Below are positions 25,539 through 31,744 of a stretch of DNA of 64,000 bases, in pieces. The translations under genes were made by a program, and so were the position numbers. The notes under the pieces were generated by a model, which did no database searches, had not been told where the DNA came from, and worked only from the letters and a program-made list of their open reading frames with translations. Origin of the DNA: Nocardia vinacea (GTDB lineage: Bacteria > Actinomycetota > Actinomycetes > Mycobacteriales > Mycobacteriaceae). How positions within the stretch are numbered: the first letter of the stretch is position 1; the number at the start of each line of letters is the position of its first letter. The DNA lies in contig NZ_CP109149.1 in the NCBI RefSeq assembly GCF_035920345.1, positions 2,356,001-2,420,000 on the forward strand, read 5' to 3'.

Positions 25539-25829
25539 GCATTCCTGCCGATGTTTCGGGTTTCGGTGCTGCGTCTGATCGAGAGGTATGTATCGAGGTG
25601 GGGGCGCGGCGGTGCGGTTGCCAGGTCTACAGCGCCATCATGACCGGCCTCGACCATCCGCACGCCCCGCACTTGGCAACGCTCAGCAACCGGTGCTCAA
25701 CACTCGATAGACGGCTAGAAGAGTGCACTCGGGCCTGCGTAGTTGGTCCGCGGGAAAATGGTTGGTCGGGAGGATGTTCGGACTGCTAACCTCGGCGAGA
25801 CCGTGACATCACGCGAGGAGGTGAGACCC
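25539..25829. other. intergenic region between furA and the GNAT leader
   Basis: About 290 bases with no credible gene. The right end holds a possible -10 element TAACCT at 25787-25792, about 40 bases before the leader peptide; a TTGGTC 19 bases further upstream is only a weak -35 candidate. I see no AT-rich WhiB7-type element beside the -10. Confidence 0.4.
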
Positions 25830-25889
25830 ATGCAGGCTGTATCGATGTGGGAGCTCCCTCTCGTCATCACGGTTGGGCGAACGATGTAG
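25830..25889 (+). CDS. 19-residue leader peptide upstream of the GNAT gene
   Basis: A 19-codon frame, MQAVSMWELPLVITVGRTM, starts at ATG 25830 behind GAGGAGGTGAG, the strongest ribosome binding sequence in this part of the window and far better than that of the gene it precedes. It ends with TAG two bases before the 5' arm of a hairpin whose 3' arm covers the GNAT start region. Such a layout is that of translational attenuators, where a ribosome stalled on the leader frees the downstream gene. The hydrophobic LPLVIT stretch recalls macrolide-stalling leaders, but this is only a resemblance. Confidence 0.6.
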   Translation: MQAVSMWELPLVITVGRTM

Positions 25890-25891
25890 AC

Positions 25892-25935
25892 GTCGCCGGG
25901 AGCGCCTGGGAGACAAGGCAATCCCGAAAGGCGAC
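25892..25935 (+). promoter_or_regulatory. candidate attenuator hairpin sequestering the GNAT ribosome binding site
   Basis: GTCGCC (25892-25897) pairs with GGCGAC (25930-25935) and GGGA (25898-25901) with TCCC (25922-25925), leaving a GAAA bulge; a small inner GCCT/AGGC pairing is possible in the loop. The presumed Shine-Dalgarno GAAAGG (25926-25931) lies in the bulge and 3' arm, and the GNAT ATG is at 25941. The leader stop at 25887-25889 abuts the 5' arm, so a ribosome at the leader's end would open the stem. Confidence 0.5.
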
Positions 25936-25940
25936 AACCA

Positions 25941-26738
25941 ATGAATTCTGAGCATTCAACTGCGGGTATGGGCGAGCCAACCGTAGTAGTCACGCGGGCC
26001 GCGCTGACGCAGTGGCACGCGCTGGACAACGACCGGGTGGTGGGCTGCGGCGACGCTTCGCGGCGCCCCGACGGCCGGATCTTTCTCAGCATCGACTCCT
26101 GGCACGACGCGGTCTTCGACCAGCTCGCCCACGCGATGCTGACGGACCTTCCGGCCCCGCTGTACACGGTCGTCGATGAGATCGACGTGGGCCTGACATC
26201 CAGCTGGGAGCGAGTCGGTTTCACGACTCGGCGCCGTGAGTGGGAATACCTCGTGCGCACCGACCCGCGGGTCACCGGACTCGACGCGACGCCCCCGCCT
26301 CCGGGTACCACGATCGTCGTCGGCGGTGACGCGGAGCAGGGTCCGCTGCGTGCATTGGACCGCGCGATACGCCTCGAGGTCGAGGCTGCTGTCGGATGGC
26401 AGCAGATGCCGGCGGAGGTGTTGCCCCGCCTGAGCGGGAACACCCCGCTGGATCTGTCGAAGTATGTGGTGGCAGCACAGCCCGATCGATACGTGGGACT
26501 GGTCCGGGTGATGCAGCGCCGTCACTGGGCAAGGATCGGGCTGATCGCAGTCCGGGCCGATCAGCATCGCCGCGGTATCGGGCGGGCGCTGCTAGCCCAC
26601 ACGCTGGGCGCATTGCACCACCGCGGGATCGACACGGCGTCAACCGAAGTCAACGAATCCAACACAGCGGCCACGGCACTGTTGGAGGGCATCGGAGCCC
26701 GACGCGCAAGCAGCAACCTGGAGTTGGTGCTGCGATGA
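25941..26738 (+). CDS. GNAT family N-acetyltransferase
   Basis: A 265-residue protein with two GNAT-like halves. The N-terminal half (to about 110) keeps the fold but no acetyl-CoA motif. The C-terminal half has motif [21 protein letters not shown], then [20 protein letters not shown], as in active enzymes. The acceptor is unknown; the linkage to an IF-1 gene and a leader-peptide attenuator suggests a role at the ribosome or in resistance to a translation inhibitor, which is inference. The next gene overlaps by four bases (ATGA). Confidence 0.85.
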
Positions 26739-26968
26739 CAGATGCGACGAAGAGCAGAAAGGGTATCGAAATAGAGGGCACCGTCATCGAATGCCTCCGC
26801 AACGCCACCTTCACGGTAGAGCTTCCGAACGGGCACAAGGTGCTCACCCACATCAGCGGGAAGATACGGAAGAACTACATCAAGATCATGCTGCATGATC
26901 GGGTACTGGTGGAGCTGAGCCCCTACGACCTCACCCGCGGCCGAATCGTGTTCCGGTACAGGACGTAG
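26735..26968 (+). CDS. translation initiation factor IF-1 paralogue
   Basis: A 77-residue S1/OB-fold protein. [40 protein letters not shown] and [19 protein letters not shown] align over the full length of IF-1. It is not in the usual adk-map-infA-rpmJ setting, and positions that are almost fixed in actinobacterial IF-1 differ (for example [10 protein letters not shown] instead of HYIRILPEDR), so it is probably a second, specialised copy. It is translationally coupled to the GNAT gene and followed by a strong terminator. It could replace or compete with housekeeping IF-1 when translation is blocked. Confidence 0.9.
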
Positions 26969-27012: not shown

Positions 27013-27039
27013 CGGCGGCCGGATTGCATCCGGCCGCCG
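27013..27039 (+). terminator. terminator hairpin after the IF-1 paralogue
   Basis: CGGCGGCCGGAT and ATCCGGCCGCCG form a perfect 12 bp stem with a 3-base loop, 45 bases after the IF-1 stop. The 215 bases from here to the next gene hold nothing else I can name. Confidence 0.8.
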
Positions 27040-29065: not shown

Positions 29066-29121
29066 ACCCGCACGGCGGAGCCGGTTAGCGGCTGCCGCTG
29101 GTTATGGAGGCGAACGCATCC

Positions 29122-30465
29122 ATGGCAACAGTAGAAGAGCCTGTCATGCTCGAATTGGACGATATCCAGAACGGGGCCATACATCCGCGGCCCTCGCCGT
29201 ATGTCGGCGCCTATATTGTGCTGCGCATCGACGACCGGCGCGCCGGTCGTGAGCTGTTACGCAGGCTGATTCCGGCGATCGCCGACGCCACGAGCCCGAT
29301 GGATCCAAGCCGCCAGGCGTGGGTCAGTGCCGGACTCAGCTTCCGGGGCCTCGAGGCGCTGGGTGTTCCGCAGGACTCGCTCGACAGCTTCCCCCTGGCG
29401 TTCCAGCAGGGCATGGCCGCGCGGGCGGCAGAGCTGGGGGATGTCGGTGACAGCGCCCCCGAAAACTGGGAGAAACCGTTTGGCACCCCGGATGTCCATG
29501 TCGGGCTCAGCGCGCTCTCGCCCGACGCGGCGCGGCTCGAGCCCGTACTCGCCCGTGCCCGGACGGCGTTTGAGGAACTCTCCGGGGTCACCGCTCTATG
29601 GAGCCTGGATTGTCACGTGCTGCCCACGGAGAAAGAAGCTTTCGGGTTCCGGGACGGCATCAGTCATCCAGCAATTGAAGGCAGCGGTATTCCGGGATCG
29701 AACCCCCAAGAGAAGCCCCTCAAGGCGGGCGAGTTTTTGCTGGGCTATGAGAATGAGCGGCATGAGCTGTCTCCGATGCCGCGGCCCGAGGTTCTGGGTA
29801 AGAACGGCACCTATGTCGCTTTTCGCAAGCTGCACCAACGTGTTGCGGCGTTTCGCCAGTATCTGAAGGCGAACTCCTCGACTCCGGAAGAGGAAGACTT
29901 TCTGGCGGCAAAGATGATGGGGCGCTGGCAGAGCGGCGCACCGTTGGCGCTGTGTCCGATGCGCGATGACCCCGAGCTGGGTGCCGACCCGAAACTCAAC
30001 AATGATTTCCTCTACAAGGATGATGATCCGCAGGGCTTGAAAACACCCGCCGGCTCGCACATTCGACGTCTGAATCCGCGCGACTCGGACATCAGCGGCT
30101 TCGCGCGTTTTCATCGCATGATCCGGCGCGGCACCAGCTACGGCCCGATGCTTCCGCCCGGGGTCATCGACGACGATGGTGCCGAACGAGGGTTGGCGTT
30201 CGTCTTTGTCGGCGCGAACTTGGAGCGGCAATTCGAGTTCGTCCAGTCGGAGTGGGTGAACAAGGGGCAGTTCTTTCATGGCCCCGTCGGCGATAAGGAC
30301 CCGATCGCGGGCGCGAACAGCGGAAGCGATCACTTCACCATCCCTCAACAGCCGATCCGCCGACGGCTACAGGGTCTGCCGGCTTTCGTCGTCACACGGG
30401 GAGGCGAGTATTTCTTCGTGCCCGGCCTGCGCGCCCTGCACTGGTTGGCCGATCTCGAGACCTGA
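29122..30465 (+). CDS. DyP-type heme peroxidase
   Basis: A 447-residue dye-decolorising peroxidase. The distal motif GFRDGISHPAIEG (G-x-x-D-G, about residue 175), the proximal His in SHIRRLNPRDSD (about residue 313), the distal Arg in ERGLAFVFVGANLERQFEF and the end motif TRGGEYFFVPGLRALHWL are intact. At about 450 residues without a Tat signal it belongs to the longer cytosolic types rather than the encapsulin-linked B type. GGAGG at 29107 supports ATG 29122, not 29104. It lies in a same-strand run with a small unknown protein, DUF4331 and a TPR protein. Physiological substrate unknown. Confidence 0.93.
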   Translation: MATVEEPVMLELDDIQNGAIHPRPSPYVGAYIVLRIDDRRAGRELLRRLIPAIADATSPMDPSRQAWVSAGLSFRGLEALGVPQDSLDSFPLAFQQGMAARAAELGDVGDSAPENWEKPFGTPDVHVGLSALSPDAARLEPVLARARTAFEELSGVTALWSLDCHVLPTEKEAFGFRDGISHPAIEGSGIPGSNPQEKPLKAGEFLLGYENERHELSPMPRPEVLGKNGTYVAFRKLHQRVAAFRQYLKANSSTPEEEDFLAAKMMGRWQSGAPLALCPMRDDPELGADPKLNNDFLYKDDDPQGLKTPAGSHIRRLNPRDSDISGFARFHRMIRRGTSYGPMLPPGVIDDDGAERGLAFVFVGANLERQFEFVQSEWVNKGQFFHGPVGDKDPIAGANSGSDHFTIPQQPIRRRLQGLPAFVVTRGGEYFFVPGLRALHWLADLET

Positions 30466-30592
30466 CGAGGGAACACAGCGATCCCACGCTCCCTGGCCCG
30501 CCTACACTTCCCGATGGGGTGGCCGGCACCTGCGCTGGGTGAGATCGCGCTCTACCAGAGTCGTTTCGATGGTCTACAGGAGTTGGTGAGAA

Positions 30593-31744
30593 ATGTCTGA
30601 CCATAATTCCGGGCCTCGGGCCTTAGCAGATCCCGTTGTGGACATCACCGACGTCTACGCCTTCCCCAGTCCGGAACAGCCCGGCTTTCTGGTCTTGGCG
30701 CTCAACGTGTTTCCGAACGCAGAACCAGCCGCGCAGTTTTCCGATGCGGTCGACTACCGATTCCGACTGCGGCCGGTCACGATCCCGCGCGGAACCACTC
30801 CCGCGTTTGTTGTCGGCGAGAAGGAATACACCTTCAGCTTCCGTTTCGCGGGCCCGGTCGAGCACCAGGCCGGCTCGCCGCTCGCGCAGGAAGGCACCTG
30901 CACCGCCTCAACCGGCCAGACCGCGTCCTTCCGGGTGAACGACGAACAGGGTGGAAAGGCTCACGGCCTGCGCGCCTTTGCCGGACGGCGGATGGATCCA
31001 TTTTTCTTCGACGGCGTCAGGGCGGCGCAAACGATCATGACCCGACAGTTGGCGTTTGTCAGCCCCGGCGACAGCAGGCAGTACCGCCAAAACGTCCTCA
31101 GCATCGTCGTCGAACTCGACATCGCCACGACTTTCGGGGCGGACGCCGGACCGCTGTTTGCCGTCGTCGGCGAAACGATGATTCCCGGGCCGATCACGGT
31201 CCGTCTCGAGCGCTTCGGCCGCCCCCTGATGAAGAGCGTCGTCCTCGGCGCAAAGGACTTCGATACCGTCAACCGGGATCTGGATATTCGCGATCTGTAT
31301 AACCAGGAGGACCCATACAACCTGGGGCCGACATACCTTGGTGCGTACCGGGCGCGGATGAACGCGAATCTCGGCTTCTGGGATAGCCTCGACCACAAGA
31401 TTGACTGGCCGCCGGACGCGCACGGCACCCACCCTCTGACCGAGCTGCTGTTGGCCGATTTCATGGTGATCGATGTGTCGAAGCCGTATGCCGAGGATAG
31501 CTACTTCGAGATCGAGCGGGCGTTGTTGAACGGCGCCAGCCATCAGAGCTGTGGTGGCCGAAGCCTCAATGACGATGTCGGAGACACGATTGTGACGACG
31601 CTGATCAATGCCGGGAACGGCGCCCGGATCAGCGACGGTGTCGACCAACAGGCAGTCCGGGCCTCTCGCACCTTCCCATATCTCGTTCCCCCGGAACTGA
31701 ACCCTCCGGCCAAGATCGAGCTTTCCCTTGACAAGTCCGGGTGA
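30593..31744 (+). CDS. DUF4331 family protein
   Basis: A 383-residue protein of the DUF4331 family. VDITDVYAFPSPEQPGFLVL near the N-terminus, DYRFRLRPV, GRRMDPFFFDG and the late DVSKPYAEDSYFEIERALLN are family blocks. Most DUF4331 proteins are exported; this one has no signal peptide, so it would stay in the cytosol with the peroxidase. Function is unknown. GGAGTTGG precedes the ATG, 127 bases after the DyP stop. It overlaps the TPR gene by four bases (GTGA). Confidence 0.85.
   Translation: MSDHNSGPRALADPVVDITDVYAFPSPEQPGFLVLALNVFPNAEPAAQFSDAVDYRFRLRPVTIPRGTTPAFVVGEKEYTFSFRFAGPVEHQAGSPLAQEGTCTASTGQTASFRVNDEQGGKAHGLRAFAGRRMDPFFFDGVRAAQTIMTRQLAFVSPGDSRQYRQNVLSIVVELDIATTFGADAGPLFAVVGETMIPGPITVRLERFGRPLMKSVVLGAKDFDTVNRDLDIRDLYNQEDPYNLGPTYLGAYRARMNANLGFWDSLDHKIDWPPDAHGTHPLTELLLADFMVIDVSKPYAEDSYFEIERALLNGASHQSCGGRSLNDDVGDTIVTTLINAGNGARISDGVDQQAVRASRTFPYLVPPELNPPAKIELSLDKSG

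Follow-up and report, generated by a model that had tools for sequence, protein, structure and literature searches.

A leader RNA common to many actinomycetes that may control a GNAT acetyltransferase and a second IF-1 by sensing ribosomes held at the start of a short reading frame

In the genome of Nocardia vinacea (10.36 Mb, one contig), a stretch of 64,000 nucleotides, here called the window, carries a very short open reading frame immediately ahead of genes for a GNAT acetyltransferase and a second copy of initiation factor 1 (IF-1). This arrangement raises the question of whether the short frame controls the genes behind it and, if it does, what it senses. Our preferred answer, to which we assign a probability of about 0.6, is translational attenuation, in which the leader would sense a ribosome held at its own start codon. 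The observation at this single locus is real, and the feature extends far beyond the locus, being common to many actinomycetes.

The leader reading frame (uORF) spans 25830-25889 on the forward strand, as do all elements of the leader, and comprises 19 codons, MQAVSMWELPLVITVGRTM followed by a stop. Its strong ribosome binding site, with the Shine-Dalgarno sequence (SD) GAGGAGGTGAGACCC at 25815-25829, had been placed correctly in an earlier note on this DNA. Five conserved stretches make up the RNA. Region 0 (ACCGTGA, 25800-25806) is the predicted 5′ end of the transcript and has its partner at 25867-25873 within the uORF, whereas region 1 is the leader SD itself, which would be the partner of region 2 (GGGAGCTCCC, 25849-25858) in the off state. 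Region 2 can pair alternatively with region 3 (GTCGCCGGGAGCGCC, 25892-25906), the 5′ arm of a sequestering hairpin whose 3′ arm, region 4 (25917-25935), holds the GNAT SD GAAAGG (25926-25931), spanning the bulge and the arm. Only 2 nt separate the uORF stop from this hairpin (25892-25935), and the earlier proposal that it buries the GNAT SD was borne out by folding: the isolated hairpin has a stability of −22.8 kcal/mol, compared with −12.6 for shuffled sequences (z −3.85, none of 200 shuffles being as stable). The whole 144-nt leader shows no unusual stability (z −1.20, 24/200 shuffles as stable).

Behind the hairpin lie the tandem GNAT acetyltransferase gene (25941-26738, forward strand, 265 aa) and the gene for the IF-1 paralogue (26735-26968, forward strand, 77 aa), and their overlap by ATGA is as had been described. 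The paralogue scores 105.6 against a TIGR00008 cut-off of 61.15, and it separates from canonical IF-1 in a grouping with support of 100/100. The nearest named relative of the GNAT, among the best 80 of 157 named loci, is from Nocardia vinacea (93% identity). An assignment of this protein as RimI, the S18 acetyltransferase, was rejected (TIGR01575 score 41.8, below the cut-off of 86.4). What the earlier note had called a strong terminator after IF-1 contains a real GC-rich stem of 12 pairs at 27013-27039, but a T-rich tail is found on the minus strand only, so the stem does not qualify as a canonical intrinsic terminator of the GNAT–IF-1 operon. A PADLOC scan gave no matches. Elsewhere in the window, upstream of the operon and on the opposite strand, are a catalase-peroxidase-like protein of the peroxidase family (PF00141, 22793-25024) and, adjoining its gene, a Fur-family regulator (PF01475, 25071-25538, minus strand); a Dyp-type peroxidase-like protein followed by a DUF4331 protein is encoded at 29104-31744 on the forward strand.

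The leader is preceded by a putative WhiB7/WblC-type promoter (25754-25792, forward strand), which is an addition to the earlier observations. It consists of GAAAAT, 3 bp, a −35-like TGGTCG, 18 bp and the −10 element TAACCT, and it departs at the fourth −35 base from the TKGM of the WblC consensus (GAAAWY, 3 bp, TKGMNN, 16-19 bp, TANNNT; available parts of PMC7157823). Because the rule for WblC promoters given in the same parts of that source sets the start site 7 or 8 bp past the −10 element, the transcript would begin near ACCGTGAC, at 25800, the 8th base past −10. A reduced motif (GAAA-N4..6-TKG), which is also present in the window, occurs upstream of 117 of the 186 distinct leaders that we collected, compared with a shuffled mean of 2.9. 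By class, it is present at 81/106 GNAT, 14/15 monooxygenase, 20/46 hydrolase and 2/4 IF-1 leaders, and it was not found upstream of patatin-like (0/7), PrmC-like (0/7) or unassigned (0/1) leaders. The strict consensus lies upstream of 21 leaders in the set as first counted, 190 sequences that represent the 186 distinct ones, with 0.00 expected from shuffles. From these counts, control of the GNAT-class leaders by WhiB7 is likely, and for others such control would be absent or unseen. One locus (L178) also encodes a WhiB protein with an RPRGRPRK tail, which we take to be a marker of WhiB7.

How broadly the leader is distributed was examined with covariance models and by way of the GNAT gene, one comparison set of genomes having been chosen by hand, partly for carrying GNAT. 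A first model, built from 11 leaders, matches 126/148 genomes of the genus (E of 0.1 or less) and 77/296 genomes of the class (E of 1e-4 or less), the window's own genome being included in both counts. With a wider model, 15 of 296 genomes sampled across the phylum have matches, and all 15 belong to the same class or closer. Among 60 genomes examined, the window's own included, 11 further genomes have a GNAT match below 1e-30, and the leader is found in ten of these; the exception is a 38% relative (L013). Two of the ten leader-bearing genomes have ATT in place of ATG. These may be set beside two GNAT leaders of the same genus (L008 and L011) in which, by eye, ATT replaces ATG, a one-base shift occurs ahead of region 2, and the 5′ pairing is kept with bases changed on both sides.

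The earlier note had looked to homologous loci for a shared leader with covarying stems. Within the best 80 of 157 named GNAT loci, the leader is directly upstream in all 80 (59.7-177.1 bits; at least three of them, L094, L097 and L152, are also among the 11 sequences from which the model was built), and IF-1 follows GNAT in 79 (71-96% identity; the exception is L137). The shared leader was thus confirmed, and of the stems the 5′-terminal helix covaries somewhat and the one that hides the SD hardly does.

For the pair counts we used 81 of 92 non-redundant leaders, 11 rows from PrmC-like genes and ATC-start hydrolases being left out. In the 5′-terminal helix, 91.5% of cells are paired (slid controls, at most 50.5%), and its covariation score is 0.158 (controls, at most 0.065). 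This helix has 14 cells changed on both sides, a number reached by none of 500 shuffles and approached by one slid control with 12, whereas the number of its pairs with such changes is matched by 34/500 shuffles. The remaining helices are also paired far more often than their slid controls: 97.0% of cells for helix 1:2 (at most 69.6%, with no excess over shuffles), 96.3% for 2:3 (at most 59.0%) and 86.7% for 3:4 (52.9%). Across the 81 leaders all three are nearly invariant, and their covariation is not clearly above controls. Regions that have to pair with two partners, as 2 and 3 do, are not expected to vary much, and the pair counts are no proof of helices 1:2, 2:3 and 3:4.

The earlier idea of a self-contained module does not survive the survey, as the same leader also precedes four other gene classes. 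The 186 distinct leaders, whose class shares are not frequencies because matches were selected by hand for fetching and typing, comprise 106 before GNAT (104 with IF-1 near) and 46 before alpha/beta hydrolases in two groups, together with 15 before FAD monooxygenases, 7 before patatin-like and 7 before PrmC-like genes, 4 directly before IF-1, and 1 unassigned. For example, the window's own genome has a second copy (L154, G000:C1:614632-614782, minus strand) before an alpha/beta hydrolase related to the solved esterase 4ao6 (E 4e-35). One leader-preceded monooxygenase (519 aa) exceeds the NCBIfam cut-off for rifampin monooxygenase (835 versus 800), and one PrmC-like protein exceeds that of TIGR03704 (404.9 versus 248.8). 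In one genome (G011), GNAT is without an IF-1 neighbor in the stretch examined, and IF-1 stands elsewhere behind its own copy of the leader.

Plasmid sequences in PLSDB carry the leader as well. In Embleya it is directly upstream of an RGI-predicted rox gene, and in Streptomyces directly upstream of a GNAT-infA pair. On a Tsukamurella plasmid (L307, 1369-2192) it is followed by a gene that overlaps infA and encodes a hypothetical protein of 152 aa, so that another partner takes the place of GNAT. In two loci with rifampin monooxygenase-type genes (L209 and L240, each 201-353), the first approximately 38 residues resemble by eye the starts of the hydrolases behind this leader, which gives the impression that leader and gene start were acquired as one piece.

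An SD followed by ATG, GTG, ATT or ATC is present in all 186 distinct leaders, although the search pattern required a middle T in the start codon and other codons were sampled unevenly. With this limit, GTG is used by 91, ATG by 81, and ATT and ATC by 7 each. The AUU and AUC starts are found in 7/7 PrmC-like leaders, in 5/23 of one hydrolase group and in 2/106 GNAT leaders. A second model added seven leaders before PrmC-like genes, all with AUU or AUC, which makes 14/14, although these seven genes were recognized by eye, and for three of the seven leaders the match is confined to the first half of the model. A near-cognate start behind an extended SD would fit slow or reversible initiation complexes.

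If the leader worked like those of erm and cat genes, a drug together with the nascent leader peptide would arrest translation towards the end of the uORF, and the stalled ribosome would itself open 3:4. The uORF stop abuts the hairpin as such a mechanism would have it, and the peptide WxLPL..VTVGR is kept within several classes. Nevertheless, of the 180 placed leaders, 65 have the region-2 stretch in a different frame of the uORF although the RNA is unchanged. In addition, only 10 of 84 leaders show a gain in SD opening above 0.2 when the last sense codon is masked by a ribosome, and we consider this account unlikely. The core of region 2, CTCCC, begins 21-25 nt past the start codon in 180/186 leaders (the other six were not located), and it falls in frames 0, 1 and 2 in 115, 7 and 58 of these 180. 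Over much the same RNA, some lineages hence encode MNAVSMWVLPLVVTVGRLT and others MNAVSMWVLPSSSRSGD ahead of the stop, and most Streptomyces loci encode VNTVTHGCSLNPSRSGG or near variants. The leader body thus has no arrest peptide that is conserved across the 180 placed leaders.

The part of the earlier proposal that called for a leader frame and an SD-burying hairpin, that is, a translational attenuator, therefore stands, but a leader peptide conserved over its full length does not, since the frame varies with lineage and gene class. Codons 2-3 are NA, NT or NV in 155/186 leaders, and a role for the peptide near the start is possible. In 86/92 non-redundant leaders the uORF stop lies 0-16 nt ahead of the hairpin core, where shuffles would give 8.7. 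The RNA is thus conserved more than the peptide. Because the SD, start codon, codons 2-3 and position of the stop are kept while the frame varies, selection seems to have acted on where the uORF begins and ends, not on its full peptide.

This constancy also bears on two other accounts. The leader could be an RNA that binds a ligand or protein, for example in autoregulation by IF-1 or a ribosomal component; the uORF would then be incidental. Its strong conservation across many lineages and the translation factors among its targets would suit such a role, which we nonetheless hold to be improbable: every class examined retains the SD, the start codon and the placement of the stop, most targets are not translation factors, and an Rfam search with 1901 bases at E up to 1 gave no match to the leader (a lone unrelated hit, elsewhere, was below its gathering score). 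Less probable still is that the uORF is a plain translation enhancer acting through reinitiation, as has been proposed for actinobacterial leaders with spacings of 10-11 bp (available parts of PMC4833913). Here the uORF stop and gene start are separated by a median of 50 nt, which makes reinitiation unlikely, the distance being 20 or less in 1/87; moreover, a hairpin that buries the SD stands between them.

We folded nascent RNA ending just past region 3, with the 3′ edge of the ribosome at +15, for 89 of the 92 leaders; here and in full-length folding (85/92), leaders with a region that could not be located were dropped. The mean probability of helix 2:3 is 0.06 in free RNA, and it rises to 0.75 with a ribosome on codon 1 and 0.59 on codon 2 but is 0.04 on codon 3 and 0.00 on codons 4-6. 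These limits shift with the assumed edge, since with +13 codon 3 still gives 0.29 and with +17 codon 2 gives 0.28. Helix 2:3 reaches a probability of at least 0.5 in 71/89 leaders, compared with 3/89 when the downstream sequence is shuffled. As 2:3 forms only with a ribosome on codon 1 or 2, the spacing is that required for a start-codon sensor.

In full-length RNA at equilibrium, masking ribosomes on early codons brought no opening. A first measure of SD accessibility was blunt because the GAAA sits in the bulge; for the GG of the SD, the mean open probability over 85 leaders is 0.17 with or without a start-stalled ribosome. The window leader goes from 0.11 to 0.36 with such a ribosome, and its 2:3 probability is still 0.00. 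Because 3:4 wins at equilibrium in the full-length RNA, 2:3 would have to be trapped during transcription.

A switch at the level of transcription would place the decision elsewhere, with leader translation determining intrinsic or Rho-dependent termination before the gene. Actinobacterial whiB7 and are5sc leaders do combine a uORF with a terminator (available parts of PMC10727445 and PMC12421871). In the present family, however, the 12 nt that follow the hairpin SD hold only short T runs: of 91 relatives, 83 have a longest run of 1, 7 of 2 and 1 of 3. The sequestering hairpin is thus no intrinsic terminator, and the gene SD is itself inside the hairpin. We regard transcriptional attenuation as rather unlikely.

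A sensor of the start codon might work as follows. In the off state, the leader start would be enclosed by the 5′-terminal helix (region 0 with 25867-25873) and helix 1:2, and the gene SD would be hidden in hairpin 3:4. Ribosomes translating through the uORF would cover region 2, allowing 3:4 to form, and the stop codon just ahead of region 3 would end their passage there. In the on state, a ribosome or initiation complex held at codon 1 or 2 would cover region 1 and end just short of region 2, which could then pair with emerging region 3 before region 4 exists, leaving the gene SD free. Ribosomes would most likely be held by compounds that block initiation or formation of the first peptide bonds. 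At two other leaders, both from S. coelicolor, drugs of the lincosamide type are reported to stall ribosomes at uORF start codons (available parts of PMC12421871).

Production of the GNAT–IF-1 pair would consequently require both active WhiB7 and the arrest of ribosomes near the start. Conserved anatomy and geometry were shown here and nascent-RNA pairing was computed; we infer translation of the uORF, the held ribosome as signal, kinetic trapping and transcription driven by WhiB7. A drug or a component of translation is the probable substrate of the GNAT, and the IF-1 paralogue would probably assist initiation under the same stress. One target does not fit: the drug of rifampin monooxygenase acts on RNA polymerase, which is at odds with a purely ribosomal trigger.

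More tentatively, and with a probability that we put below one half, the leader could be a movable gauge of start-codon occupancy throughout the class, set by geometry (the region-2 core at 21-25 nt) instead of by peptide. It would have come to stand ahead of enzymes that inactivate drugs, of a stress IF-1 and of a PrmC-like methyltransferase. The PrmC-like version, with AUU or AUC in 14/14 cases seen, might then read initiation fidelity, with the IF-1 paralogue as possible feedback.

If the start-codon reading is true, one regulatory RNA is common to several resistance-type and translation-factor genes across actinomycetes, and it would be possible to predict which drugs induce them. The tandem GNAT, second IF-1, hydrolases and PrmC-like enzyme would gain a testable role in the response to ribosome inhibition. 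Moreover, the leader offers a natural test of whether ribosomes are sensed by position or by peptide, and of uORFs that start with AUU or AUC.

No description of the leader family was found in the literature searched, a scope that leaves most subscription papers and all supplements outside, and none is given in the available parts of PMC7157823, PMC12421871, PMC10727445, PMC8079986, PMC4833913 and PMC1262725. By its layout the leader would count among the translational attenuators, and no family of this sort is described in that literature. Attenuators of the erm and cat type have a leader reading frame and a gene SD buried in a hairpin, without a terminator, and all three traits are shared by the present leader. 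It differs from them in that RNA geometry is conserved while the reading frame varies, in that the predicted site of sensing is the start codon instead of a late, peptide-specific one, in that one leader is common to unrelated genes, and in the AUU and AUC starts of some classes. A near-cognate start codon under the control of an initiation factor is also known from E. coli infC, which has an AUU start and is autoregulated. Unlike in infC, the AUU or AUC is here on the uORF, and the gene behind it encodes a PrmC-like protein, a hydrolase or a GNAT.

The promoter motif resembles that of the WhiB7/WblC regulon, which also has GNAT targets (available parts of PMC7157823 and PMC10727445). The protein nearest in fold to the window GNAT is MAB_4324c, which is on a list of WhiB7 ChIP targets in the same parts of these sources; neither an IF-1 nor a translational leader of this type appears in the available portion of their main-text account. 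The leaders of whiB7/wblC, are5sc and tiaA are likewise attenuators based on a uORF, in their case responding to antibiotics, and come from the same phylum (available parts of PMC10727445 and PMC12421871). For are5sc and tiaA, stalling at the start codon has been shown (available parts of PMC12421871), whereas it is predicted for the present leader. Those leaders take terminator and anti-terminator forms and encode other uORF peptides, according to the same parts of both sources, whereas here the predicted switch is the SD of the gene itself.
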